Positions 2,905-58,324 of a DNA stretch of 58,372 nt are shown piece by piece. The notes under the pieces are model-generated. The model made no database searches. It was not told the origin of the DNA and was given only the letters and a program-made list of their open reading frames with translations. Within the stretch, counting starts at the first letter, position 1. Every line of letters starts with the position of its first letter. A program made the translations under genes and the position numbers. This DNA comes from Chromera velia (lineage: Eukaryota; Sar; Chromeraceae): assembly GCA_018398765.1 (NCBI GenBank), contig JAHBMJ010004664.1, positions 1 through 58,372 on the forward strand. Reading direction: 5' to 3'.

Positions 2905-5900
2905 CATAATGGCTTAAAAAGAGACATGGTTGACTTTTATCCCATCTTATTTGTATTGGGGGGCAATTATGGCATGAAAGGAGGCATGGTCGACTTTTGT
3001 CCCACCTTGTTTGTGTTAGGGTGCAGTTATGGCTTAAAAAGAGATATGGTCGACTTTTATCCCACCTTGTTTTTCTTAGGGTGCAGTTATGGCTTAAAAG
3101 GAGGCATGGTCGACTTTTGTCCCACCTTGTTTTTCTTAGGGTGCAATTATGGCTTAAAAGGAGGTATGGTCAACTTTTGTCCCACCTTGGTTTTGTTAGG
3201 GTGCACGTATGTATATAGCTTGAAAGGAGGCATGGTCGACTTTTGTCCAACTTTGTTTATGTTAGGGTGTAATTATAGCTTAAAAGGAGGCATGGTCAAC
3301 TTTTGTCCCACCTTGTTTATGTTAGAGCTAGGTGTTGGAGTGCAGTTATGGCTTGAAAGGAGGCATGGTCGACTTTTGTACCACCTTATTTAGGGTGCGA
3401 TTATGGCTTAAAAGGAGGCATGGTTGACTTTTATCCCACCTTGTTTATGATAGAGTGCAATTATGGCTTGAAAGGAAGCATGGTCGACTTTTGTCCTACA
3501 TGGTTTGTATTAGGGTGCAGTAATGGCTTGAAAGGAGGCATAGTCAAGTTTTGTCCCACCTTGTTTGTGTTAGGGTGCAGGTATGGCTTAAAAGGAGGCA
3601 TGCTCGACTTTTTTCCTACTTTGTTTCTGTTATGGTGCAATTAATATGGCTTGAAAGGAGGCATGGTCGACTTTTGTCCCATTTGGTTTGTGTAAAGGTG
3701 CAATTATGGCTTAAAAGGAGGCATGGTCGACTTTTGTCCGACTTTGTTTGTGTTAAGGTGCAATTATGGCTTAAAAGGAGGCATGGTCGACTTTTGTCCC
3801 ACCTGGTTTGTGTAAAGGTACAATTATGGCTTAAAAGGAGGCATGGTCAACTTTTGTCCCACATTGTTTGTGTTAAGGTGCAGTTATGGCTTAAAAGGAG
3901 GCATAGTCAAGTTTTATCCCACCGGGTTTGTGTTAAGGTGCAGTTATGGCTTAAAAGGAGGCATAGTCGACTTTTGTCCTACCTTGTTTGTATTACAGTG
4001 CAATTAATATGGCTTGAAAGAACACATGGTTGACTTTTGTCCTACATGGTTTATGTTAGGCTGCAACTATGGATTGAAAGGAGGCATGGTCGACTTTTGT
4101 TCGACTTTGTTTATGTTGGGGTGCAAGTATAGCTTAAAAGGAGGCATGGTCGACTTTTGTCCGACTTTGTGTTGTGGTGCGATTACGGCTTGAAAGGAGA
4201 CATGGTCGACTTTTGTCCCACCTTGTTTGTGTTAGGGTGCAGTTATGGCTTAAAAAGAGATATGGTCGACTTTTATCCCACCTTGTTTTTCTTAGGGTGC
4301 AGTTATGGCTTAAAAGGAGGCATGGTCGACTTTTGTCCCACCTTGTTTGTGTTAGGGTGCGATTGTGGCCTAAAAGGAGGCATGGTTGACTTTTGTCCCA
4401 TCTTGTTTGTGTTAAAGTGCAGTTATGGCTTAAAAAGAGGCATGGTTAACTTTTGTCTGACCTTGGTTTGTTTAGGGTGCGATTATGGCTTGAAAAGAGG
4501 CATGGTCGACTTTTGTCCCATGTGATGTATGTTAGGGTGCAGTTATAGCTTGAAAAGAGGCATGGTCGATTTTTGTCCTACCTTGGTTGTGTTAAGGTGC
4601 AATTATGGCTTAAAAGGAGGCATGGTCAACTTTTGTCCCACTTGGTTTGTGTTAGGGGGCAATTATGGCTTGAAAGGAGGTATGGTCGACTTTTATCCCA
4701 TCTTATTTATGGTGAGGTGCAGTTATGGCTTGAAAGGAGCATGGTCAACTTTTGATAGTCTTTTGTCCGACCTTGTTTGTGTTAAAGTGCAATTATACCT
4801 TGAAAGGAACGAGGCATGGTCATGCATGGTCGACTTTTATCCCATGTTATTTATGTTCTAGGATTATGTTACGGTGCAGTTATGGCTTGTCAATGAAAAG
4901 AGGCCTAGAAAAGAGGCATAGATAGGCATGGTCGACTTTTGTCCCATCTGGTTTGTATAAATTTTGGCTTGAAAGGAGGCATGGTCGACTTTTATCTAGA
5001 CTTTTGTCCCATATGGTTTGTATTAGGATGCAGTAATGGCTTGAAAGGAGGCATGGTCGACTTTTGTCCCACCTTGCTTATATTGGGGTGCGATTATGGC
5101 TTAAAAAGAGGCATGGTCAACTTTTGTCCGACTTCGTTTATGTTGGGGTGCAGTTCTGGCTTGAAAGGAGGCATGGTCGACTTTTGTTCCACCTCATTCA
5201 TAATTGGGTGCGATTATGGCTTAAAAGGAGGTATGGTCAACTTTTTCCTACCTAGTTTATGTAAGGGGGCAATTATGGCTTGAAAGGAGGCATGGTCGAC
5301 TTTTGTCCCACCTTAGTTGTATTGGGGTGCGATTATGGCTGAAAAAGAGGTATGGTCATCTTTTGTCTGACCTTTTTTTGTATTGGGGTGCAATTCTGGC
5401 TTGAAAGGAGGCATGGTCGACTTTTGACCCACCTTATTTGAATTAGGGTGCAGTTATGGCTTAAAAGGAGACGTGGTCGACTTTTGTCTCACCTTGGTTG
5501 TGTTAGAGTGAAATTATGGCTTAAAAGGAAGCATGGTCGACTTTTGTCCCACCTTGCTCTTATTGGGGTGCGATTGTGGCTTAAAAGGAGATATGGTCAA
5601 CTTTTATCCGACTTTGTTTGTGTTACAGTGCAATTATGGCTTGAAAGGAGGCATGTTCGACTTTTATCCCACCTTATTTATGATTGGGTGTGATTATGGC
5701 TTAAAAGGAGGCATGGTCGACTTTTGTCCCACCTTATTTATGATTGGGTGCGATTATGGCTTTAAAAAAGGCATGGTCGACTTTTCTCCCACCTGGACCG
5801 GTGAGCTGGTTTATGTTAGGGTGCTAGGTTAGGGTGCAATTCTGGCTTAAAAGGAGGTATGGTCGACTTTTGTCGGACCTTGTTTGTGTCAGGGTGCAAG

Positions 5901-28810: not shown

Positions 28811-31800
28811 ATGGGAAAGGATCACTGGGAAAATATGTGGTCAGCCAGCTGCTGCTCATGCAGACAGAGATCTGAGTTGAAGGTCGTGTGTTGCTCTGCC
28901 TTTCGTTGCCGCACTCGTTCAAATGTACGTAAACTTTTTGCAGGTCTGCGGGGATCAACCCCGGCCAGGCCTTTGACGCAATGCAGCCAGGTGAGGCAGA
29001 ACTTCATTCCCCATCTTTCCTTTCAGAAGGAAGCCCACCATCCTGATTGACACCAGTGTCTCTCTATCTGTTAGCGGTATCAGTTGCTTCAACATGTGTC
29101 TTTGATTGACTGACCTTTGTGTGCGCATGCATTCAGTCCCGATCCTCTCCAAGATGGTGAAGGAGGGCGCTGTCCCAGAAGGCCGAGCCCTCGTGCCAGG
29201 ATGCGGACGGGCGTATGACGTCCAGCTGCTTGCTTCACCTGCTCGCTTCGTGTTGGGAGTCGACATTGCGCCAACAGCCGTTGCCCAGGCACAAGGTGAG
29301 ACTGAAATATAGACCGACTCAGACTAGGATTGTGAAGGGTATCAGCGGGTGGGTGGGTGGGTGCGGAACGTAGAAAAAAGACTAAGGTTGAAAGCAGGGT
29401 GCGGGTCAGGTCTGGTCAAAGGCAAACAGACAGTGCTCACACGGATTCCTCGATTCTGCTGAGGCGTTCCTCTCTCCCCTCCCTCCCATTCTCATTATTC
29501 GATCATGTCTCTAGTGTCATATGATACTTCACCCTTACCCTGTATCTTTCTTGTGCACAGCTTACTTGGACACCTGCGATCCTCCTCCCTGCCGAAACTT
29601 TGAGTTGATGGCAGCGGACTTCTTCTCTCTGGGCGAGTCTGAAGAGAAGAAATTCGATTTCATCTTCGACTACACTTTCCTCTGTGCACTCCCTCCAGAG
29701 CTCAACGTCCGTCTTTCTACTCTCGATGCTACTGCGGGAAATAGTCTGCATATCTTTCTTTTTGTCTGCATGTGCGTGTCTCTCGTCCAACTGCAAGCTG
29801 GCTCTCTTCTGATCCTCTTTTTTCTGAAGTTCCTGATGGGAGCCGCACATGGAGAATTTCGCCCTCGCACTTCTGAGTTTATTCCGTGCCGTTGCCATTG
29901 TTCCTAAAACTGTGTGTATGTACCTGTTGCAAGCATGTGTGGACGACGCCCGGTGTCCCTCCCTTGCAATTAATCCATTTAATATCTCCTTTCCTTTCTC
30001 GGTGCTCCCTCCCTCCCTCCCTCCCTCCCTGAATATCGAGAAGAGTCAATCAATTTGTTTGTGTATTCTCTGCCATGCACTCTGCACCACATTGAAGCAG
30101 CCTCAGTCGAGATCTCTTTCTTTCAGCCGGTCGCCCCTCAGTCAGTAAGTGCGTCAATCACTCTTACTCTTCCATCTGAGACTGACAGAATTCTGCGTGT
30201 TGCAATGTGCTTCCGCGCTTCTCTGCATGAGATGACGCACGCATGCAGGCACAGAGGGCCAAGAAGATGTCGTCATTGCTGAAGCCTGGGGGGGTGCTGA
30301 TGACTCTCATATTCCCTATCTGCCAGAAGGAGGTGAGCGCGTGGCTGCATGTGTGCTCGAGGGGCCCCACTCGGATGCGAATCAATCGACGGTTTTTCTT
30401 CTCGTCGCTATCGATTAATTGGGGTGTGAAAATGTGTCATGTATGTGCGAATTAGTGAATTCTGCCGGGAAAGAGCCACTCGATGACCATTTAGTTTCCC
30501 CTACTAGTTATTTTGGTTGTTGTCTCTCTTTCGGTCTTTCCTTCCTTCCTTCGTCACGTCTTTCTTCGATCCGTTCTTTCTTTCCTAGGTTTGTCGCCTC
30601 CACAATTAAACCGTGTGTGTCTGTCTTTGTTTGCTTCTTCTGGATTCCCACTTCGGGTTTTAATTGTTTACTGGTTTCTCTGTGTATGTCCAAAGTCTTT
30701 TGTTTTTTGTCCATATTACTATGCAGTTTGTTTTTTTGTTGCCTCGAGTGCCACTAGGACTGTACTTTATTCGCAGGGAGGTCTCTGTCTCGTTTCGTTG
30801 GACATTCGCGTATCGACGCCTCTTTGTGTGATTGGTTGTTCTCTTTGCTTCTTTGCTTGTGAATCTCTACTGCCACGTTTCTAAATTCTATTATCTTTTC
30901 AGGGAGGGCCTCCTTTTGCGATGTCTCTGGAAACTGGAAAAGGTGCGGGGGCTCTGCGAAGACGTGGGGGGACTGAAGGTCTGTCGGTCGGTCGGTTGCT
31001 TGCGGGGGCGGTCTATGATGGTTGTTCAGCTCAGGGTCAATGAAATTGCGTTCACGCTGCGAGGTGTATCTTGGAACCAAGAGAGGAACAGGGGGTAGAG
31101 AAAAAAAGAGAGAGCCAAGCAGTGGCCATCCGAGTGCATCGATCGAACATTCTGTATTCTCTGTCTGTCTTTGCTTCTGCATGGGGTCTCAACACATACC
31201 GACAACTAACTGCGTGAAAGCAACTCAAATCGACAAGGGGCCCGAGTGGCCCTGCCGACATTCTTACCAGCAAAGAAGTCACTTGTGTGTGTAGAGCTTG
31301 TAAGAGTCCCCTCTCGCTGTCCTTTTTTGACTGACTGACTGACTGACTGACTGACTGACTGACTGACCGACCGACCGACCGACTGACTGACTGACTGACT
31401 GACTGGCTGGCTGGCTGGCTGGCTGACTGACTGGCTGACTGGCTGACTGGCTGACTGGCTGACTGGCTGACTGGCTGACTGGCTGACTGGCTGACTGGCT
31501 GACTGACTGACTGACTTGACTGACTGACTGACTGACTGACTGACTGACTGACTGACTGACCGACTGACCGACTGACCGACTGACCGACTGACCAACTGAC
31601 CGACTGACCGACTGACTGACTGACCGACTGACCGACTGACCGACTGACCGACTGACCGACTGACTGACTGACTGACTGACTGACCAACTGACCGACTGAC
31701 TGACTGACTGACTGACTGACTGAATCTGCATGCATGAGTGACTGTTTGACTGATTGACCACCTGCCTACCTGACTCACTGGCTGAGCCATTAATTGACTG

Positions 31801-43000: not shown

Positions 43001-43725
43001 ATGAGAGAGAACAAAAAAGTAACAATGCGGTGGAGTGACTCTTCGCGCATTGCGCTCTGCGTGTGCGCCCTTCTCTGCTGGCTCCCGCAGCCTGTGTCCT
43101 CCTTCTTTCACCAAATACAGGGGGGCTTTCTCGGGAGTCACACAGAGAGGGGCCGTGTCCTTTCTCGGAGAGGTCTGTCCCACAAGCAAGTCAACAACCT
43201 GACTTCTTCCTTCATTGTGTTGCCGTCTCCTCTTGTCTGCTCCCCCCCCTTCCATGTAAGAAGCTGTTTTTAGGGGTACTGATCTTCTCTTCAGTCTTAC
43301 TGCAGCAATTCTTCGTCGGACTAGACCGCCCCGGCCTCTTCTCTCCCAAACGAACGTCTGCATGCCGTCTCTGCTCGCCCCGTCTCGTCTGCTTGTTCTC
43401 TCGTCTGCGAACTTTTCCCTTGCCCTTGACTTTGCAGAAACAGGCACGATCCCTGTGACACGCGGCAAGGACACTCGCAGCGTGCTGCTTCATTCTGTAG
43501 CTGAGTCTCTGCTTGACCTGTCGGAACTCGGAGACGAGACGGCAGAGAGAGAGAAAGGGAAGGAGGGGCTAATGGAGGAGGAAGGAGACGAGGAGGATCT
43601 GCTGCTGCTGGGACCTCCTGAGGCAACAGAGACGGGACTCGAGGAAGCCTCCACCCTCGTACTGGAGGCACACAGAGAGGTCAGTCAGTCAGTCAGTCTC
43701 TGTGTCAGTCAGTCAGTCAGTCAGT

Positions 43726-43765
<40 letters not shown>

Positions 43766-44975
43766 TTCTTCCTTCATCACAGTGACTGCTTGTCTCTTTC
43801 CTTCTACGTCCTTTCTTTTCAGTGTGTGTGTGTGTGTGAGTGTGTGAGTGTGTGAGTGTGTGTGTGTGTGAGAGAGAGAGAGAAAGTAAGTAAGTAAGTA
43901 AGGAATGAAGTAGAGAGGGAGAGGGAGTGAGAGATCAGAGACGCAAGTTTGCCAGGAAGAAAAGAAAACTTCCCGCACTGGGGCAAAGGCAAGAGCAGGA
44001 ACAGAAACAGATTCTCTGACTGACACGCACCCGCCTTTCCCTTCTTTCAGCCACACGAATGAATTCAATGTGCCTTCATCTCGGGAGGGTGCATGCATGC
44101 CTGATCCTCGATCAATTGTTTTGAAGGAGAGAGAAGCGTTCTTTGACAAACGAATCATACTGCGCTTATGCAGCTGTCTGCCTACCTGTATGACGGCTGG
44201 GCTGAGTTCGACTCGGTGAGGCTCGACGCTAATCCTGCAGAGCGGGTGCGGCTGAACAAGTTCGTCAGTCTGTGTGTGCGTGCGTCAGGATCGGCAGAAG
44301 GGGGAGTGAGCGCTCTTTTTATGGGCTGCGCTTCAAAAAGGAAACCCTCTCAGTCTCCTCTCAATGTCGGAATCATGGCATTTGTGTGTCTGCAGTGTGC
44401 GTGTGTGCGTTCCCATCCGTTCCCCCTCCCAGTTTTCAGAGCTCACGACTCAGGATGTTGGTTGATCGACTTCCACAGACGACCAGGGAAAGAAGGGGAA
44501 CGAAGAAAAGAATCACAAAGGACGGACCTTCAGAGCTTCTTACGCCTGCACATTTACAGACATGAATGTGAACGCATAGTGGTTGACTGTGTATGTGTGA
44601 CGAGGACGTCCCTTGGAAACTTTATGCATGCAGGAGGCTGACGGTGGACCTGGAGGACCTTGGACTTCTGTGCGGGGTGAAGACCCTCGTGGGCGATTTG
44701 AAGGAGGCTGTGTCGAAGTTCGACATGAAGGCAGAGGGGGCTCGGGGGTTTCTTCTTCAATTCGTCCGCACTCTCTCCAAGGCTGCAGGAGGTCGGGGCA
44801 AGCGGGGAAGGAGAGGCATAGACGAGCAAAGAAAACGGGAGTTATTTGTGTCGTGTTTCAGTTTTTTTGTCATCGGTGCATGATTGAAACCAGCCTCAGT
44901 CGAGTTCCTTTCCTTCTTTCTCTCTCTCTATCTCTCACTCTGTGTGTGTGTGTGTGTGTGTATGTGTGTGTGTGT

Positions 44976-45037
<62 letters not shown>

Positions 45038-45131
45038 CTGTCTGTATGTCTGTATGTCTGTATGTCTGTATGTCTGTCTGTATGTCTGTCTGTCTGTCTG
45101 CCTGTCTGTCTGTCTGTCTCTGTGTGTGTGT

Positions 45132-45166
<35 letters not shown>

Positions 45167-48100
45167 TCTGCCTGTTTGTCTGTCTATCTGTGAAGAAGAG
45201 GGAAGGAAACCACATAGTCTGTCTCTGAGTAAAAAAGAGGAGGGAAAGAAATCACATAGTCTGTCTATGCGTGCGTGTCTTATGCCTTGGTTGTTGCGTG
45301 TTCCCATTGAAGTTCCCCCCCCCTCTTTTCTTGCTCAGCTTTCCTTCCTTTCTTTCTTCCTTCCTCACCGCTTCCTTTCATTCTGTGCTGTGCAGCAACC
45401 GACTTTTCTTTCGGTGTTCTGTGATCCCATATCCGTTTTTGTGTCTGCATTTGTGTCGATATGCATCTGTATTTTCGTGCGCCTCTGCATTATCCTTCTC
45501 TGCTCCTTTGCCCTCTTCTCCTTCCTCTCTGCTCTTTGTGCCTGCAAGCAGGAAACGTCGAAGCGAAAAGGCGGGCACAAGAGCTGCTTGTCAAAGCCGT
45601 CCAGTTGATGCCCTGTAAGTAGGCAGGCAGGCAACCTGACAGGTTTTTTTTTTATTTCCCGTCTCTGTTTGCTGATCTCAGTGAACGAAATTATTTGCTT
45701 TTCCTTTTTTCTCCTTCTTTCTGGCTGAGGACAGGGAGGCAACAAAAGGGGCAGGAGGGAAGTCAGAAAGTTGTGTCCTCATTTTCGTTTTGTGATTTTC
45801 TCTTCTCTGCCCCTCGCGCCCTCCCTCCTCTCTTTACGGTCTAGGAATTCCCCTTTTTTTGTAATTCTCGGCGCACACACTTTCAGTGCGCGCGCGCGCG
45901 CGCGTGTGTGTGCGTGTGTGTGTGTGTGTGTAATCCAAGTGGATCCTCGTACACTATTTTTTGTTGCAGCGACAGACCGTCAGAGAGCAGTTGTGGAAGC
46001 CCTGGGGGCCCACCTGCCAAGGCGCCTCCGCGCTCTCCGCGCTGACGTCGGGACCCGGCCCCTTGCATTCGGCAGAAGTCGGCACGAGATGGCGGCGTTC
46101 ATTCGGGAGAACAGAGAGCGCGCACCCAAAAAGAGAAAGTCACGAAGGTCAGACAGACAGGCAGGCAGGCAGGCAGGCCATAGGTCCTTTCTTCTGAGTT
46201 GACGCACGCAAAGACAGGCCCGATTCTTGGCGCGACATTTTTTGTTTGTTTTTCGCTCCGATCCGATGGACACGTGAATCGTGTGCGTCGAATTGTCTGT
46301 CCATACTTACTTGAAGGTATTGACTTTCTGCATTCATGTAGGCATCTATCTGTGCGTGTGCGCGCACGCATGCTTGTTCATGTCAGTCATGTCTGTGTGC
46401 GTGTGTGTGTGTGTGTCTTTGCAGTTACTTGCGGACTTGCCGGGACGCAGAGATCGTCCGTGTGTTTGCGGAGACAGCCGTGAGTTCCGGGCAGAAGTAC
46501 TCGCATGATGAGGTGACAGAGGCCATAGAGAGGGCGGAAGCGAAAGACAGGGCAAGGGACAGAGAACTGAGGCTCCTGAAGGCTGCGGCGTCTCTGAAGA
46601 AGAAGAAGAAGTCCGGAGAGGAGACGGCAGCTGAGCAGGAGGCGAGGGGACGGAAACCGTATGCACCTTTCGACTATGGGTGGGAGCTTCCTGAGGGACA
46701 CGAGGAGGAGCAGGAAGAGGAGATAGAGGTGATAGAGCAGGAGAGGGAGGGGGAGGAAGACAGAGAAGAATCTCAAGAAGAAATGGAGGAAGCAGAAAGT
46801 TCGACGGAGGACTCTCATAACGATGACGGGGCGGAAGAAGAATATGGTACAGAAGAAGCGGCAGAGAAAGAGGAAGAGGAGGATGGCGGGGGAATGGGAT
46901 GGTTGACTGCCTCAAGAAGTGCTCTGCGAGATGAAATGAGTCGGCAGAGGGGGGGGAATGAAGTGTCTGCAGCAGAGACAAAGAACGACAAAGAGGCATC
47001 GACTGGAAAAGGGAAAGTGGAGGTCTGTTTTGTTTCTTTGATCAATGTATGTGTTTTTCTATCCGAGGTTTGCATCTGCTTATCAGTACGTTCCAGCACA
47101 AATGTTCCCGCTATGGAAAGAAGAAAGAAGCACTACTCTACATCTTTTTTTCATTCCACTGTGCTCTTTTTTTCTGACCTCTCTGTGTGAGTGTTCGTTA
47201 CCGATGCAGCTGTCTCCTTCTGAATTATTCTCTGTCTTGCAACTACTGCCGATTCAGTAGGGCTTTTTGCAAGAGCACGCTTTTCATTCCATGTTCTTGC
47301 CTTTCCTTCCCTGTGCATCCTCCTGCTCTCCTTTTCAATCATCATTACTTCTCCCCCCCCCCCCNNNNNNNNNNNGGTCAGTTTCGCACCACTTCCTCTG
47401 AGGCTGCTGCCGCCGCCGCCTCTGCCCAGGCTTCCGCTTCCTCTGAGAGGCTGTCAAATAGGGGGCAGGCTTCCGCTTCCGATTCTGACGAGGAGACGGC
47501 ACAGATTGAGAAGGAACGACAGAGAGCTGCAGAGGGAGAGAGGAAAGTGGCGAAATTCCAACTTGAGGTGAAGAACATGGCCAAGGACGAAATGATCGAA
47601 TTCCTCAGGAAGAACTCCGATTTGGTGCCCGACAAGTCGAAGCTCCTGCAGGACATCGCTGTGGGCCGATTGCAGAGACAACCCAGGCAGGAGCTCGAGA
47701 ACACCTGCATGCTTGTGTACGCACAGAAAGTAGGGGCTGTGCAAAATACAGACATGATGTCCAAAAAGGAGCTTCTGAGGTAGGTCAGTGAGCAGGAGAG
47801 TGAGTGAGTGAGCAGGTGGTTGTTGATCGGTAATTTCGAGCAAGTGGATTCGGCCTCTTCCTTCCTTCCTTCCTTCCTTCCTTCCTCTCTCTCTGTGCAT
47901 CTATCTGCTCTGTGAGTCTGTTCACCACACACAAAAAAGAAAATGAACAAAATTTAAGCCAGGATCGAGACCTCGTTCTCTCTCACACACAGATGACTCG
48001 TCGCTCGTCTGAAGTCACGACAAAGAGGGCGACTGATTCTGTATGGTCCGCTCTTGCGTGTCCGTTCTGCCGTCGGTCTGTACTTGTATGTCTGTCCAGT

Positions 48101-48173
48101 CTTAGCGCAAGTCCAGCTTGTGACTGGCAGTTCTCTACTTCAGTCCTTGGGGGGTGCTTACAGACTCACCTGT

Positions 48174-48205
<32 letters not shown>

Positions 48206-51032
48206 GCAGAGCTCTCCGGACTCAAATCTCTGACGCCGACCGCCTCGAGATGGACGGCCGCACGGTGACGCTGAAGTCTCTCGCCTCTTTACCTGTGGCG
48301 GAGTTGAGAGAAGTCGTGAGGAATTTGGCCTCCCAGAAGCAACAAAAAAAGGTCAGTCACTCAGGTGGAGAGAGAGAGAGAGGAAAAGTGGCAGAAGAGG
48401 TGTTCGTGTGTACGCAAATGTGTCTGTGTGTGTGAGTGAGAGAGAGAGGGAGTCAGGGCGAGAGAGTGATGAGAAAGGACGATAACCAGATTTCTGTTTC
48501 TTCGGCTCTCATTCGGTCACTTTTCCTCCCTGCCTGTGCCTCTTCGCATGCGCCCTTCTGGACTACTCTCTCTTCTCTTATCTCTGTGTCTATCCATCCA
48601 TGCGAGTGTGTGTGTGTGTGTGTGTGTGCAGCTCTCCGAGGAGGACCTGTTGGCACGTCGGCTGGAGGTCTTGCCTGCCTTCATGCAGGAGAAATTCGAG
48701 ATATGGCAGAAGGACGCTTTAGTGGGCTGGTTGAAGGTGAGAGAGAGAGAGAGTTTCTCCTCAGAGGTGAAGTGCATAACGGACACCTGCAGGTAAATCA
48801 CACAGAATACTGATAGATATGAAGGCACACAGAGGCCATCCATATGAAGCAATCTTCCTTCTGTTGGGGGGGGTCCTTCCTTGTGATATCATGCATGCAT
48901 GCACAAATTGAAGGTGGGTGGAAAGAGAGAGCGAGATGTTAGGCTTCTTCAACGCGAGAAGGAAGAAGGCCGAAAGGTGATCGTCGGTCGATAGAGAAAG
49001 AGTCTGATCTCTGTTATTTGTTTTGGTCATATGACCAGACAGAGGAGCGAGCATGAAGGTCGTTCCTTCCTTCCACCCTCTTGCCTTTAGGTCTTTGCTG
49101 CGTCCATCTTGCATCTCGATGTATTCCGCTGTTCCTTTTTTCCCTGAATTCCTCTCTCCGCCTTCGCGTTCTTCTTGTGGCACGGTACCATGACTTCCTG
49201 CGTGCAGGCCAACCAGCGCATTTTCCCGACCGTCTACCAGAAGTACAAGGAGAAGGAGATCAACAAAATGAGCGCAAGAGAACTAGGCGGGAAGGTGCGG
49301 GGATGTCTGGTGGACGCCCTCATGGAGGTTCGTCTTTCTTCTGTATTGCCTCTGTATTGCTTAATTTTATTTTCTTATTCTTCTTCTGTTCTAGAAGGAT
49401 GTCTGGTGGACGCCCTCATGGAGGTTCGTCTTTCTTCTGTATTGCCTCTGTATTGTTTAATTTTATTTTCTTATTCTTCTTCTGTTCTAGAAGGATGTCT
49501 GGTGGACGCCCTCATGGAGGTTCGTCTTTCTTCTGTATTGCCTCTGTATTGTTTAATTTTATTTTCCTATTCTTCTTCTGTTCTAGAAGGATGTCTGGTG
49601 GACGCCCTCATGGAGATGCGGAGGTCTCTCTCTGTTGGTGTCTGTCTGTCTTTGTGTCTTTCTTTCTTTCTTTCTTTCTTTCTTTTCTTTCTTTCTTTTG
49701 CTGTCTGCCGACTTGCCTACTCATCCTAGCATTTCTATCTATCTATCTGTCTGTCTGTCTGTCTGTGTGTGTGTTTGTTCGCGCGTCTGTGCGTTTTCAA
49801 TCTGCTCTCTCTGAGAAAAGACATTCTCTTCGCAGATACTCCGTAGTCGACCGAAAATTCCATCCATAAATCCACTGACTGACTGAACGTGCGCGGAAAG
49901 GAACGGAAAGGAAAGGAATGTGCGGCATTGGGGGCATGCAGTTGGCGCAACTTATTAAGATTGCAGTGGAGGGGGAAAAGAGCCTTTGGACGCGGCCGAA
50001 AAGCACCAGAATGGATGCATGGAAGTTGCCAGACTAGTATTTTTGCTTTAATTCCTCTTACATTTCTCTCGGCACAAATGAATGAATAAGTGAATAAAGG
50101 AATGAAAGATTGAACGAATGAATGCTTGAATTACTTCAGGCGCGGGCAGCAAAGAAGGCGAAGGAGCAGCTTCTGCTTGAACGGCGACAGGAGAGGGAGG
50201 CGGAGACCCGGAGAGCAGTGGAGGAAATCAGGCGGCAAGAAGAGAGGGAAGAGGAGGAAAGAAGGAAAGAGCAGCAGAGAGAAGAAGAAAGGAGGAAAGA
50301 GCAGCAGAGAGAAGAAGAAAGGAGAAGAGAGGCGCAGAGAGAAGAGGAGGAGAGGAAGAGGGAAACCGAGAGGGAAGAACAAGAGAAAATCAAATCAGAA
50401 GAAGAGCGGGAAGCGAAAAAAGACGATGGAGAGTCAAATGAGAACCCCTATGGGTCTTTGACGAAAAAAGATTGTCTCCAGCTTCTCACACTTCTCCACA
50501 AATTTGTTCGTTCAGAGCTCATCTCAATCTCCTCCTCTGTCACTGAAGCGCTTGAACAGAAATATAAAAAAGACCGAGCATCAGAAAAGGAAAAAGGAGC
50601 TGCCCGGATCCCACCAGCACAACCGGGGACTTTAGAGATGCGTCGTGTATTGAAGCGTCTCCGTCTGGAAGAGTTGAGAGGCCTGGTGCGACTTGCCGTC
50701 TCGCGATCGGATCTGGCAGCAGAGACTGGAGAGGGCTTGTCCCGGTCAGACCTTCTGGAAGAACTGCAGGACCCCTCCAACACAGAAGTGCTCTCTCAGG
50801 CAGCACAGGGGGACCCCAAGAGCTTATCTTTCCTCACAGGTGAAGGGGCCCAAGGACGACTACAGCAGCAGTCGGACGCCCACCTGAGGGCAGCCTATGT
50901 GGCAATGTGCAGGTGTGGCAGTCACGTGCATGGGAAGGGAAGAAGGGAGGGGGGGGGGAAGGGAGAAGACCTTCCGATGGATGGCGCGAATTCTGAAAGA
51001 AACACACACACACACACACACACGCGCGCGCA

Positions 51033-51066
<34 letters not shown>

Positions 51067-53543
51067 AGAGGGAGGGACCTCAACATTCACAACTACACCC
51101 GGCCCACCGTAACCCCAAAAAGAGAGAGACAGAGAGAGACACACAGAGAGAGACACACACACACACACAGAGAGAGAGGGAGGGAGGGAGGGAGAGAGAG
51201 GGAGGGACCTCCATATATATACATACAAATGACTTGCTGGGTGTCCTCGCTTCCGCGCTCGTTGGTTCTTCCCACAGCACGTGAACACAGAGAGAGCCGA
51301 GCAAGATCTCCGAGTGGTTTGCCTTGCCTGCCTTGAGGAGAGGGAGACGAAAGCTGTTCCGTTGAATGCATTTTCTCTTTCTGCTATTTTCCCCTCCTTT
51401 TTCGTTTCGTGGTTGTGTTCGTTGCAGCTTCCTAGACCTCTGCCCCCTTTTGCCTCCTGTCCTCCCTGCAGAGTCGCGAGGTCAACGGAAGACTCGCCTG
51501 AGCTCTCATCGGCAGAGGAGGCCGCTCGAGATTTAGAAGAGGACATCATGTCAGGCAGGCAGGCAGGCAGGCAGACAGACAGAAAGGAAAGCAGTGAGGG
51601 AGGGAGACATGAGTGCATACATATAGATATGTGATTGAGGTGGGTGGGAGGGAAAGCGTCAGACAAGACAGCGAGTCATTGACAGACTGGCGCTTGGTCT
51701 CACAGATCGATGGATGCACTAGGTTGCATGCTTTCCCCTGTCTGTCTGTGTTAGGAGAAAGCAAGTGAAGAATCTATGACGACGCTGCATTTTCCCTCTC
51801 GCCCCCCCCCTTTTTTTTTCCCCCGTCTGCTCACTCACTGGCAGTGATCAGAAAGAAGGGTCTTGGTCGATTTCATTTTTCGCTACAAGAAAGAAAGAAA
51901 GAAAGTTTGTGCGTGTCCCTCCCTGCAGGAAAGGCAACGTGGGTGTGGGTCCCTCCATGCGTCCCGACGAGATGTCCCGAAAAGAATTGGAGTCGATGGC
52001 GTTGCTCCTCTCTGTCTACCTCCCCTCCACCGTACCTAGGAACGAGGACGGGTCGATTCTGTACAAGAAGATGAGCACAACCGATCTCAGGTAGATACAT
52101 AGAGAGGGAGAGAGGGAGGGACTGAGGAGGTTCGAACATGAGGAGGAATGCTGAGTGAGTGTGTACTTTGAAGTTCATGCTGAGTGGGTAGGGGGCGACT
52201 CTGATCAACTCACAACAATTTAATGTGACAAGGGACACCCACCTAAACAGACAGACAGACCCCATATGCACGTAAGAGATTTTGTTTGTTCGATCTGCTT
52301 CTTGAGGATTTGTCTATCTGTCTCGCTTTCCTTTGAGAACTTTCAGAGCTGCAATGAGGCAACACAAGAAACCATACGCGAAGGCGCAGAAGGGGAAATT
52401 GTGTTTCCCTCCCACCATTCCTTTCCCTCTTTTTCCCTGCAGAAAAGCTGTGCGTGATGCGCTTGACGAGGCCCTGGTGCAATCTGTGAACGGCATGTCT
52501 CGCGAGGACCTGCTGACTTCCATGGTAGCAGACATGGATAAGTTTTCCTCTTTTCTGGATCCTTCTCTTCGGACTCGAGAGGGACTAGAGGCGAAGGAGA
52601 CCACAGAGTTGCGACACCTGTTGCTTCAATTGATGGCCACTCGCACGGACAGAGAGAGGTCCATGAGGGCATTCGGTCCGGACGGTGCGGTGCAAACGTT
52701 TGCTGCTGGACATGCGGGCGGCGTGGAGTCGAGGCAAGAGAGGGCAAAGGAGGTCTTTATGGACATGCAAACACGAGAACACCCAAACTTGGTGTGTAGG
52801 AGAATATGGGCGTAGTATGTATGTGCGATTGCGTGCAGTCACTCCCTCAAGCATACAGTCATTCAATGGATATTGGGAGACACTTTTATCTTCCCTCGCG
52901 TATCTTTTCTTTTCTTGTTCTTTCTGTCTGTCCATTCTGATGCCGACTCCTTTTTCTTCCTTCACCTTTTTTCCTCCTTTCTCTATCTTCTCTCTTCTCC
53001 TCCGACATTGCCTCTTTGATTTGAGGAAACAGTCTCCCTTGAGCTCTGATGCGTCCTTCTGATGGGATGAGGTGGGAATGCGGTGGCGAATCCCTCTTGA
53101 TTCCTTCCCCCTTCCTTCCGCGTGCGTGTGTGTGTGTGTGTGTGTGTGCAGGTTGGAGAGTTGAAGCTGAGGGCTGAGGAGGCAGAGCCTGACGAGTCTG
53201 CTGAGACCTTTGCCGGAGAAGAAGAGGAGACGGAGGCTCTCCTGAGGGAGAGGTGGGGCGAGACCATGTTGCCAGTTCAGGAGATGATCTACAAAAAAGT
53301 TTTGGAAAAAGATGATGAGGTCAGCCTACCACCATTAAAGGAAAGGTTCATACTGGTGTCAAGGCAACCCACCTAGAGAGAACGCACCAGACAGAGTGAC
53401 CGAGTGGAGCACTCACTCCATTGCAATCCATTCAGAGATAGAATAACAGCACATGGACAGCCCCTTTCTTCCTTCCGCACAGACACAGCTGTCCGTCCCC
53501 ACTTCCCTTTCTGCGATCCTCGGTGAGGCCATCTGCCTTTCTT

Positions 53544-53574
<31 letters not shown>

Positions 53575-56500
53575 TTTCTCTCTCTTTGAGTGTCCGTCTC
53601 ACTGCGTATGTCTTTTGTCAGCTGCATGCAATTGCTTTCCATCAGTGCATGTGAGTGTGGAAGTAAAAAGATTCCTCCTCCTAATTTCTGCAGGAAGGGT
53701 CAGAGTACGCAATCGCGGACCTGGGACATTCCGAGCTAGTGGACCTGGTAGTTGCCCACAGGGACCACCTGCAGGACGCACAGGTGAAGGTGTCACAAGA
53801 AGCCCTGGCGGGGGAGTCGATGGAGAGTTTGAGGGAAATGGGGGCTGTGGGGCTGATGAGGGCTGCAGACAAGAGCACACGGGAACCTGTGATGGAGACC
53901 TTGAGTGACGCCATGCACTCTCTTGGGCCGTCTCTTTTCCTCGCACAGGTGGGTGGCGCGAGGGTTCGGGGATTTGCGTTGCATGCACAACAGTTTTGCC
54001 CTCATTGGTGCAGCTTTCGTTGATTAGAAGCGTCCTTCTCTTCCTGTGGCTGGGCCCGGTGCTGTCTGTCTGGTGTTTGCATGCTTCTGGTGCAGCTGTT
54101 CTTGTGTACGTGCAGTTGGATTCTGTGTCTGCGCATTTGTTTCTCTTCCCTCCCTGTCTCCTTCTGCAGACGGGGCTGACCTCCGAGATGAAAAGCCGCT
54201 TGCCCTGGAAACTCTCTCCGTTCCCCTCATCAGAAGAGAGACGGAAGAACAAATTCGCAGAAGCAGAGCTGAGCCAGGAGGACACAGAGAACTGCGAGGC
54301 CCTGCTGTCGATTCTGAGGACTTTCTCCCTTCCCCGTCTCTCCTCCATCCACTCTCTGTTGATCGAGGCCACTCAGCGCGAGTTGAGAGCCTATGAGGAA
54401 CTTCACACCAGGGAGGCAGCTGCGAACGAGGCGGCAGAGAATCCCACTCATGACACCTTCAGTGCCAGTGTAGGCCGACCAGACAAAAAGAGCCCCCCCA
54501 AGGACCCAGCCTTGGAGGAGTTAGAGAAGTTGTACGAGAGGCGGGTGCCTCAGAATGCGGCGCCTGCGTGGGCATCGAGAGACAAGAGGAAGAGGGCGAA
54601 AGTGGAGACGCCGCCTCCGATTACAGAGGAGGAGCGGGAGTCTTTGATGAGAATATTGGAGAGAGAAGACGAAGCGACGGCCTATGAAAGTCAGGTAGAG
54701 GATGGATCTCAACACCTTGTGGCAGAGAGCATAGAGGGCGGAGAGGAGAGAGGACAGAAGGGGGAGGAAAATCGAACGGCGGCTGTTGAGCCGAAAGAGC
54801 GAGAAGAGAAAGAGACTGGAGAGGAAGGAGAGGAAAGAAGAGAGAATAAAAATGAAAGCAGCTCATCGGTCCTTTCTGATCTGGGTGTAAACCGTGAGGG
54901 AGCCGAAGAGGCCCTCACCCAGTTGTGTGGGGGTGATCTGAGTGTCCTCTCCAACGCCGCCGCGTCTCTTTTCGAGAAGGAGGAGGAGGAAGAGGAAGAG
55001 GAAGGCGTAGAGGGAGAAAAGGAAATGTCTGAAGACAGAGAGGATCTGCAAACTGATATGGACGGGGAGGTTGCAGCAGATGACGTGAGTACTTTTTCTT
55101 CGGTATTGTCCGGACTTTCTGATGAGGAGATCGGCCTTCTGCTTCTTGAACTTTCAGAAGGAAGGGACCCTTCAGAGTTCGCTCTGTCAGAAGAGGAAGA
55201 GAAATCCCTTCAGGAAGCGTTGCAAGCAGAGGAGGCAGGGGAGTTGGACGTGAGGGGATTGGGCATGGAAAATTCTGGGGAGGCAATTTCTGAGTCTGAG
55301 TCTGTGTCTGTAGAGGAAACGGACAGAAGTGTGGAAGGAGAAGAAGCTGAAGTGGAGGAGGTAGGGAAAGAAGAGGATGAGGAGGGCATGCAGACAGAAG
55401 TTCAATTGACAGAAGAGGCAGAACAGGAAGAGGGAGAGGAAGCAGGAGACATGGAAGAACATCTCCTCGTCTTGTCTGACAGGGAAGCAGAGGAGCGTCT
55501 TCTTGCGGCTGAGAGGGAGGAAATGGGTGAGGACGAGACAGAGATTGTAGAGGGATTCGAGGAAGAGACGGCACCAGTAGAGTCTGGAACTGTTGGAATC
55601 CAGATTGAAGGAGGAGAAGAGGAAGAAGAAGATTCAGCCGAAGGGGAATGTTGGTGGACGGACGGAGAGGAACAGGAGGCACAGACACAGGTTGAGGAGG
55701 AAGAAGAGGAAGAGTATGAATTCAACGAAGACGATTTTGAGACTGTAGAAGAGGCGGAAATGATGGCAGAACAAGAACGACGACATACTGCCAGTTGGGA
55801 GTATGAGACAGATGGTCGTGAGAGTGCAGAGGAAGAAGATGCAGAGGGAGACGGGGAGACGGAAGGAGAGATAGAAGACAAGTGGGCGAGTGCGTGGAGA
55901 GATCTAAAGACTGCCGAATCACCCACAGATGAGGTGGATGAAGAGTCTTTGATTGCCTCTCATCCGGCTGCCATCGAGTGGTTGTCTCTCGGTCTGTCTC
56001 CTTCGTCCGTGGCTTCTGTTCTGTCCCTCGTGGGCAGTCAGAGTGTGCCTACAGACGTCCAGAGACTAGCGGTGCCTTTGCTTCTCTCGGGAGGGAAGGG
56101 AAACAGCCTGGAAGAGAGAGAGGGAGAGACGGGAAGAGAAGGAGGAGGGCAGGGACTTGCCTTTGCAGCCCAGACAGGGTCCGGCAAGACTTTCGCCTTC
56201 CTCCTTCCTCTCTTCCAGACACTCAGAGAAGAGGTCAGGCAGGCAGATCGACCTTTTCTCCCTGATCCTGCAGGTTGCACCTGGCTGGTTTCAATCGTCA
56301 GAGGTACCCTGCATTCATAGAGAGACAGGCCCTGAACAGAGAAGGCAAAAGCTGTCTATTTCGGTTTTTCACCCTCTCTCTCTTTTCTTTTCCGCAAACA
56401 TGCAACGATTTCCCCTCATACAGGTGCGCGAAGAGAGATGCCTGCCAGCACACGACTAGTCATTTTTTTGGTTCTCGTCCCTCATCGGAGCTGCCCGTTT

Positions 56501-57131
56501 TCCCGTTTGTCTGTTAAGTTAATTCTTCCATCTGCTTGCAGGAAAAGAAGAGCGGCTTCCTGAGACGTCCACGACACCCCCGAATGATTGTTCTTGCCCC
56601 CACACGGGAACTTGCACAACAGGTAGGGACGTGACGTGGGGGGCTCTCTCTTGACAGACAGCAGAAAGAAGTGATCCTTTCTTTATCACCACCTTTCACT
56701 CTCTTCATGCACTTTCTATGCATGTGTATGTCTGTATATGTGTGCATATGTGAGCGTGGCTCTGCGTACGTCTGCGGTTGTCTACTGTCTCCTTCCTCCT
56801 TTTTCTTTTTCCTCCTGATGTCAGAATTCATCGACTTCTCTCGATCGTCTCTGCATTTCTTTTCTTCTTCCGTCTTCTTTTTGTCAAGTAGTTGAATGAA
56901 GGGTTGTTTGGTGCTCTTTCTTTCTGTCCTACATCCCTCGCTGTGGGCTCTCCTTTCTTTCTCCTGTTTGCACCTTGCTTCTCTTTCTCTTGGACCTCTC
57001 TCTCTGCATGGGGGCAGGTCTTTGAAGTCGCGAAAGCGCTTTGCAAGGGGCCGCTTAAGGTTCGTCGTTTGTTTCATTATTCGTCCGTGGGTTTGTAAAT
57101 TCGTTGTTTTGCAAGGAAGTGAACGCGCTCT

Positions 57132-57171
<40 letters not shown>

Positions 57172-58143
57172 TGCGTGCGTGCGTGTGTGCGTGTGCGCAA
57201 TGTTTTCATAATTTCGCCTACAATTGACTCATTGATTGTGCACCAGCTTCCTCTCCTTGGACCTCCCACACCTCTATGGAAGCACGACAAGATCGATCAG
57301 AAATAGAGTCAACCAATCTCCTTTGTAAGTGTCCTCCCTCCCTCCGCTTTTCTTTCTGTTTGCTGTCTGTCCCTTTGCATGCATGCCGTGACGTGACGTG
57401 ACGTGACGTGTGCAGCTCTCCTGTGCGTCCCTGATTGGGGGTGACGACATCGGGAAGCAAAGGAAGGAACTGCAGAGACAGGTCGACGTGGTCGTGGGGA
57501 CACCCTCTAGGGTTCTCCTGCACTGGATGAAGGTCAGTCAGTCAGTCAGTCAGGCTGCATTCAATTTTCTTGGTGGCTGGGTGGGGGGGCCGTCTCTGTC
57601 GCTGCATGGGTGTCTCTTCTGAGAGGAGGATAGAAAGAAAATCTTTGCGACAAAGTGAGGGGGTAGTTCCATTTTTCAACTCGCTTTTGGTCTTTTCGGG
57701 GCAGCCGCAGAAGACATATCCAAGGGGATCTCGTTCTGTTCTGCTGTTCTGTGGATGAACGGAGTGAAGAGGGTCGCAGTGGTGCATTCGAGGCTTCTCC
57801 CCGGCATTTTTCTTCACTCACAATCATCATCTTCCTCTCTTCCTTCTGTCGTGTTTGGCTGGCGACTGCTTACAGGGGAACATGGCGATGGGATCTGTGC
57901 GGAGTCTGGTGGTTGATGAGGTGGACACAATGATGCTGCAGGTGGGTAGGGGTGTGTGTGGTGTGGACGGTCGTGCGGATCTGGATATTTTTGTGGATAT
58001 GTCCAAAAATATCCACAAACATCCAAAAGCATCCAAGCGTATGTGTGGACGGTCGTGCGGAACGGTCAATTGCGGTTTCTTCGATCGAGTCTCTTTCTTT
58101 CTGTCGGCTTCTTTGCGCATCCCTTTCGTTCTTTCTGTGTGTT

Positions 58144-58180
<37 letters not shown>

Positions 58181-58324
58181 TGTCTGCAGGGTTTCGGAAG
58201 TGACGTGATGCAGCTGGTGCAGCCTCTCTGTGTCCCTCGGGGAGAGGGGGAGGGGAGCCCATCAAGTGCCGGGGCCCCGGAAAGCGAAAAAGGTGCAGGG
58301 GCAAAGAGAGTAGTGCTGCGAGAG
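43001..58324 (+). CDS. Giant signal-peptide-bearing DEAD-box RNA helicase, at least 23 exons, 3' end outside window
   Basis: Exons: 43,001-43,172; 43,438-43,679; 44,174-44,259; 44,634-44,791; 45,552-45,614; 45,970-46,147; 46,425-47,022; 47,382-47,779; 48,210-48,351; 48,632-48,736; 49,208-49,327; 50,140-50,912; 51,472-51,549; 51,929-52,090; 52,443-52,752; 53,152-53,319; 53,694-53,948; 54,170-56,233; 56,542-56,622; 57,018-57,059; 57,416-57,532; 57,876-57,941; 58,190-58,324. Every junction is in phase; the sum is 6,513 nt (2,171 codons). The start is MRENKKVT or, preferably, the next ATG at 43,025, giving signal peptide [19 protein letters not shown] followed by FFHQ, like bipartite plastid presequences. 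Next come a helical region with recurring MSREDL-like motifs, a Glu/Arg coiled-coil-like stretch (50,160-50,440), an acidic region in exon 18, then Q motif, motif I, Ia, Ib and II. An N-terminal gene plus a separate helicase gene is possible, but no stop separates them. Confidence 0.7.
43680..43875. repeat. (GTCA)n, (CT)n and (TG)n tracts filling an intron start
   Basis: The intron begins with GTCAGTCAGTCAGTC directly at the donor, then a second GTCA run, (TC)n and (TG)n. It is one of several introns here whose first bases are themselves a tetranucleotide repeat. Confidence 0.9.
44938..45190. repeat. (TG)n/(TGTC)n/(TGTA)n compound microsatellite, intronic
   Basis: About 250 bp of TG, TGTC and TGTATGTC repeats between exons 4 and 5 of the giant gene. 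Open frames across it are Cys/Val or Thr/His homopolymer artefacts. Confidence 0.95.
47365..47375. other. Assembly gap (11 Ns)
   Basis: It follows a poly-C run, exactly as the larger gap at 36,124 does. It lies 6 bases before the best acceptor of exon 8, so that exon start could be slightly misplaced. Confidence 0.98.
49301..49623 (+). repeat. 96-bp tandem duplication of an exon end plus a complete short intron
   Basis: GGATGTCTGGTGGACGCC begins at 49,301, 49,397, 49,493 and 49,589, an exact 96-bp period. Each full unit is 29 nt of exon-like sequence ending ATGGAG, then a 67-nt GT-AG segment (GTTCGTC to TTCTAG). There are four exon copies and three introns (49,328-49,394; 49,424-49,490; 49,520-49,586). 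The first copy belongs to exon 11 of the giant gene. Only splicing from 49,327 directly to 50,140, or use of exactly two of the extra copies, keeps the downstream phase. Confidence 0.9.
51004..51208. repeat. (AC)n/(AG)n/(GGGA)n compound microsatellite, intronic
   Basis: Two rounds of AC-rich then AG-rich then GGGA-rich repeats, separated by a short unique segment (51,075-51,120). They lie in the intron between exons 12 and 13 of the giant gene. Confidence 0.9.
55960..58324 (+). other. DEAD-box helicase core (first RecA domain) of the giant gene
   Basis: Motifs in order: Q motif region [10 protein letters not shown], then [17 protein letters not shown]; motif [19 protein letters not shown] (about 56,160-56,215); motif Ia [12 protein letters not shown] (exon 19); a GG pair in LIGGDD and motif Ib [14 protein letters not shown] (exon 21); motif [13 protein letters not shown] (exon 22), then [11 protein letters not shown] (exon 23). 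Motif II is DEVD rather than DEAD. The DTM-x(2-3)-GFG pattern after motif II resembles plant plastid RH39-type helicases, which act in plastid rRNA maturation; that relation is inferred from memory of the motif. Motif III and the second RecA domain lie beyond the window. Confidence 0.85.
57961..58061. repeat. Intronic hairpin flanked by 19-bp direct repeats
   Basis: GTGTGGACGGTCGTGCGGA occurs at 57,961-57,979 and again at 58,043-58,061. Between them TTTGTGGATAT and ATATCCACAAA form an inverted repeat (about 57,990-58,020) with further ATCC-rich sequence. It is located between helicase exons 22 and 23. Confidence 0.75.

Follow-up and report, generated by a model that had tools for sequence, protein, structure and literature searches.

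Why does one short amino-acid pattern recur so often in a giant predicted protein of Chromera velia, and does it mark a repeat domain? The protein is encoded on the forward strand of contig JAHBMJ010004664.1, the stretch of 58,372 nucleotides analysed here (the window), by a predicted 23-exon gene (43025-58324; 2189 residues). A first-pass annotation had noticed a pattern of the MSREDL type, recurring at spacings of tens of residues and followed by a hydrophobic helix. It had likened the pattern to the opening of SAP, Rho-N or UBA-like modules and proposed an undescribed repeat domain for binding RNA or protein. We consider it probable that the gene encodes a plastid-imported DEAD-box helicase with a long N-terminal helical docking arm, in which the motif marks the starts of helices. 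Above all, the case shows that even a motif found far more often than by chance can express a general rule of helix formation and leave a repeat domain undemonstrated.

Recurrence of the motif

All 11 listed sites fall in the spliced reading frame, with first bases at 47577, 47757, 48632, 49268, 50458, 50737, 51972, 52071, 52495, 53721 and 55115 on the plus strand, and two become readable only once the introns at 47780-48209 and 52091-52442 are removed. Counts were made on our first gene model, which has 16 exons (47379-58324; 1676 residues, stop-free); its residues 1-842, here called the motif region, correspond to residues 514-1355 of the 23-exon model. The pattern that follows the annotated sites, [ML][STAG]..[DEC][LIMC] (the annotation pattern), occurs ten times in the motif region compared with 1.12 times in shuffled sequences. 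A strict form, [ML][ST].[EKRD][DE]L, occurs five times (0.12 in shuffles) and a loose form, [ML][ST]..[DE][LIMV], seven times (0.64). Not one of 5000 shuffles matched any of these three counts. When shuffling was confined to blocks of 12 residues the expectations were 1.17 for the annotation pattern and 0.13 for the strict form. Control proteins carry the annotation pattern about 0.65 times per 1000 residues, compared with ten times in 842 residues here; the background comprises nine occurrences in 39 Escherichia coli proteins (13822 residues) and 13 in 51 open reading frames (ORFs) of the same genome (20645 residues). Residues 843-1676 of the 16-exon model, which hold the eleventh site (55115), show no excess (one observed, 1.05 expected), and residues 1-514 of the 23-exon model contain no site of this pattern.

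The pattern was chosen after the sequence had been seen, and the eleventh site lies in a stretch without excess, as might be expected of a chance recurrence picked out by eye. Against this stand the shuffles and a post hoc control, in which 3780 patterns of the same form competed in windows of equal length. The best count in the motif region was nine, for [ML][SP]..[DE][LIMV]. Among 57 control windows the best counts were five in 43 same-genome windows (87 ORFs) and four in 14 E. coli windows (26 ORFs), these ORFs being concatenated open frames between stops, 250 residues or longer, and not proven genes. Chance is thereby refuted for the first ten sites as a set, for which the excess is real, and as an account of the region we find it barely credible. 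The annotated recurrence in the giant protein thus stands. The codons of the motif vary between sites (serine is TCC, TCT or AGC) and the recurrence is therefore not the result of recent DNA duplication.

The motif as a probable helix start

The layout of the motif matches that of a hydrophobic staple and capping box, with a hydrophobic residue at N', serine at the N-cap, aspartate or glutamate at N3 and leucine at N4. Passages of one source describe this N-cap geometry, in which N' and N4 make a hydrophobic contact and Glu at N3 interacts with the N-cap (PMC11101637). In the protein considered here the methionine or leucine at N' and the leucine at N4 would form the staple, and the serine with the acidic residue at N3 the capping box. 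The pattern holds with two deviations at the N-cap among the 11 sites (MAKDEM and LGHSEL). The residues that follow are compatible with a helix: proline and glycine together number 0.40 per 12 residues after the motif, as opposed to 1.03 at randomly chosen places in the region (P 0.027), and helix propensity is better than at such places (P 0.033). The hydrophobic moment after the motif is 1.05, with a regional mean of 0.79 and a standard deviation of 0.40. Judged from the sequence, the recurring motif is an ordinary helix-start signature, and the likeness to an N-cap and first helix that the first-pass annotation had proposed is borne out. Within the N-terminal extension, the motif would represent the capped opening turn of some ten amphipathic helices.

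The annotation had called for a genome search with a profile of the sites; here a profile built from the 11 sites was searched against the sequences of PDB chains. Six matches were returned up to E 10, none of them significant, namely MafG (best, E 0.39), a CopG-family regulator, talin, calcium-binding protein 1, a designed protein and the plant protein At1g15810. The prediction of profile hits above chance therefore failed in this set. The weakly matched segments in the designed protein (KLSKKELERLL), in MafG (MSVRELNQHLRGLSKEE) and in calcium-binding protein 1 (STSELREAMRKLL) are, we presume, helix starts.

What separates the motif region from the textbook staple and capping box is density and uniformity. 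A broader, generic cap pattern occurs just nine times in the same 842 residues, with 2.81 expected (P 0.0034), and seven of these nine are of the single type M/L-S/T-x-x-D/E-L. This narrow type accounts for 15 of 91 generic caps in ORFs of the same genome and for 5 of 48 in those of E. coli; Fisher tests against the two sets gave 2.8e-4 and 9e-5, respectively, for a narrow kind that was chosen after the sites had been seen.

Independent helices or an eroded repeat

The spacings between successive sites are 60, 55, 55, 126, 93, 102, 33, 24 and 151 residues, with a further 391 to the last site, such that the annotated spacing of tens of residues holds for some intervals only. We considered whether the extension might be the eroded array of a homologous repeat of about 57 residues, in which each unit contributed two capped helices and has kept nothing recognisable but the N-cap signature; this would form an α-solenoid that binds RNA or protein. 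In support of such an array, four pairs of sites lie 53-60 residues apart compared with 0.79 under random placement (P 0.0065), and the sites are spaced more evenly than expected at random (P 0.010). In addition, two pairs of sites retain similarity with the motif masked, the best pair, 640/1128, over 57 columns (P 0.008) and 750/1104 over 20 columns (P 0.004).

The similarity between units beyond the seed motif is where this alternative falters. With the six columns of the motif masked, a 30-column jackknife profile detected nothing shared among ten sites (combined P 0.49). The unmasked version gave a far lower P value but is circular, because the motif itself was used to pick the sites. Among the 55 masked, non-overlapping pairs from 11 sites, three reached 0.05, which is the level of chance, and two reached 0.01. 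We also tried a model of the approximately 57-residue unit built from seven units and rejected it, since in the jackknife none of the seven left-out units rose above background. Hydropathy shows no significant periodicity at a lag of 60 (P 0.24), and the remaining spacings range from 24 to 151 residues.

Searches for relatives gave a similar picture. Within the same genome, residues 515-769 returned only self matches (four exon matches, all on this contig, E up to 10), as did residues 876-1522 (seven exon matches, all on this contig, E up to 10), the queries being limited to these two stretches. Viral contigs contained no relative of the 190 residues of the first motif block used as a query. 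In Pfam nothing rose above the cut-off in the motif region (seven stretches and three spliced stretches) or in residues 1-406, and in NCBIfam nothing came near it for the first motif block (best E 0.015). Matches below the Pfam cut-off, including Spore_coat_CotO (E 0.0011), Sas-6-like (E 0.02) and DUF908 (E 0.022), the NCBIfam matches, and weak PDB matches to McrA (E 0.14) and germination proteases (E 0.51) were set aside as chance or low complexity.

Taken against the masked jackknife, the failed units, the masked pairs and the lack of a second genomic match to the queried stretches, the undescribed repeat domain of the first-pass annotation was not demonstrated. We continue to favour independent capped helices. 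Some of the data weigh against that choice, namely that independent caps should include generic variants, so that a uniformly narrow type would favour common descent or some shared constraint, and the four pairs at 53-60 residues point in the same direction. Descent of the helices from one repeat unit is possible on this sequence evidence, and the narrow motif type would suit an eroded array, which we nevertheless regard as rather unlikely. That the region represents an unrecognised, eroded family of approximately 57-residue helical repeats, joined to a plastid DEAD-box helicase in a single algal lineage as a built-in arm for docking to RNA or the ribosome, appears to us unlikely.

Comparison with known helical modules

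SAP, Rho-N and UBA-like modules resemble the region in opening a helix with a capped turn, and single units have a two-helix look by eye. In contrast to such modules the motif region has no profile match. Neither SAP (PF02037) nor Rho-N nor UBA was listed up to E 10 in the seven stretches and three spliced stretches, in a scan where the HMMER filters discard most matches above about E 0.1, and the seven SAP matches of the genome lie on other contigs. We therefore set aside the annotated resemblance to these three families and judge it very improbable that the region consists of them.

A further candidate is an array of the OPR or HPR type, the repeat by which organellar proteins of algae and apicomplexans commonly bind RNA. 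The compartment and function would probably be the same, OPR/HPR-RAP proteins likewise combine long helical stretches (predicted here) with organelle RNA, and the RAP family is present in this genome with 15 matches. However, the window gene shows no 37-38-residue repeats with a PPPEW or LWALA-type signature, has no RAP match in the parts scanned and is irregularly spaced. Five OPR/HPR-like signatures scanned over all 2189 residues gave a single WASA, in the acidic linker, a scan limited by the difficulty of recognising OPR and HPR from sequence to which part of one source refers (PMC12691811). The sequence matches in the PDB were not significant. The RAP regions of the genome also differ from the motif region: eight of them, with 15 ORFs of at least 250 residues, some perhaps non-coding, carry five sites of the annotation pattern in 6833 residues. 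An OPR/HPR-type array is, in our view, improbable.

Two of these RAP regions, L059 and L061, contain regular 37-residue arrays with LSNTLWSLA, while L056 and L057 contain looser ones. In strand-oriented coordinates the regular arrays lie at 5407-6990 of L059 (minus strand), with a RAP-like end, and at 6516-7367 of L061, and read LSNTLWSLAKLxHYDKAVVDELCEKAM...; these very similar OPR/HPR-like units are perhaps young expansions. Near the RAP match of region L062, two ORFs at 3760 and 5134, 1.37 kb apart, share their first approximately 280 residues and may reflect a tandem duplication or an assembly error.

Helicase domain and probable plastid import

The C-terminal part of the protein is a DEAD-box domain (PF00270; E 1.3e-33 and 116.6 bits, with the cut-off at 26), and DED1 is the nearest solved relative by sequence (E 4.1e-23). 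We located segments that we take to be motifs Q, I, Ia and II. The Q motif (56048-56071) and motif I, AQTGSGKT (56168-56191), lie on the plus strand in exon 18; PTRELA, GTPSR and DEVD follow in exons 19-23, with DEVD as motif II. The domain is truncated after motif II by the end of the window (58372), which lies within the gene.

At its start the predicted protein has a hydrophobic stretch and VSS, followed by FF after the presumed cleavage site. Exon 1 (43025..43172), in which this signal-peptide-like start has a hydropathy peak of 2.8 over 11 residues, encodes a candidate bipartite plastid presequence. A section of PMC8233740 outlines the arrangement for red-derived complex plastids, in which the transit peptide that follows the signal peptide carries F, Y, W or L at +1. 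The genome, marked as eukaryotic by its size and spliced genes, has 58 light-harvesting exon matches and the host is therefore probably photosynthetic; the psbA family gave no match in this assembly. Chloroplast DEAD-box helicases of plants act in ribosomal RNA (rRNA) maturation and splicing, according to an excerpt from PMC5442247; by analogy, rRNA or intron RNA would be the likely substrate.

The product has the helicase motifs in common with DEAD-box helicases, among which we liken it by role, and by its probable import into an organelle, to the plant chloroplast helicases RH3, RH22 and RH39. It differs from DEAD-box helicases in the approximately 1940 residues that precede the core, which have no Pfam match in the parts scanned, and in reading DEVD for DEAD; the second lobe would fall beyond the end of the contig. 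The product would thus be a DEAD-box RNA helicase that enters the plastid of a photosynthetic protist, and the helices of its non-catalytic extension may act as a scaffold or as an arm that docks the enzyme to an RNA or ribonucleoprotein substrate. If the arm is a true docking device, the protein would exemplify a plastid helicase with an adaptor of its own in place of a borrowed OPR- or PPR-type partner.

Gene model

The 23-exon model is free of stops, was assembled from open frames and splice signals, and reaches the contig end. Since the exon joins were selected for phase and splice signals, their agreement in phase is no independent evidence. A second in-frame ATG is present at 43001, near the start of exon 1. 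Exons 2-7 (43438-43679, 44174-44259, 44634-44860, 45552-45614, 45970-46147 and 46425-47022) encode an N-terminal part that is free of annotation-pattern sites and has an acidic end; their joins are in phase with AG acceptors and GT donors, that of exon 4 being weak. The first motif-bearing block (47382..49327) comprises exons 8-11 (47382-47779, 48210-48351, 48632-48736 and 49208-49327) and holds the sites 47577, 47757, 48632 and 49268; the start of exon 8 sits at an assembly gap (47365-47375). Exon 12 (50140..50912) encodes a Glu/Lys/Arg-rich stretch (residues 771-869) and then the sites 50458 and 50737. This stretch separates the first block from the second (51472..53948), formed by exons 13-17 (51472-51558, 51929-52090, 52443-52752, 53152-53319 and 53694-53948) with the sites 51972, 52071, 52495 and 53721. 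Exon 18 (54170..56233) encodes an acidic linker (residues 1531-1935; 38% Asp and Glu) with the isolated site 55115, and then the beginning of the helicase domain, which continues in exons 19-23 (56542-56622, 57018-57059, 57416-57532, 57876-57941 and 58190-58324). All exons are on the plus strand. We treat the motif and helicase exons as one gene, although they may instead belong to two.

Two tandem repeats touch the splice sites. The join of exon 13 to exon 14 at 51559 uses an uncertain GC donor that lies within a CAGG tandem repeat. At 49301-49615 a 96-bp unit is present in 3.3 copies that are 99% identical, repeating the end of an exon, its donor and the following intron. The donor of copy 1 joins the next exon in phase and the other copies look intronic; this may be a true duplication or an effect of assembly.

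Other features of the window

Upstream of the gene, a long TGAC tandem repeat (31328-31723; 49 copies of an 8-bp unit) is overlapped by long minus-strand ORFs, which are probably spurious. A 60-bp satellite fills about 25 kb (2909-28036); its strands are strongly asymmetric, with a GC skew near +0.3 across most of the tract, and it includes arrays with periods of 120 and 180 bp.

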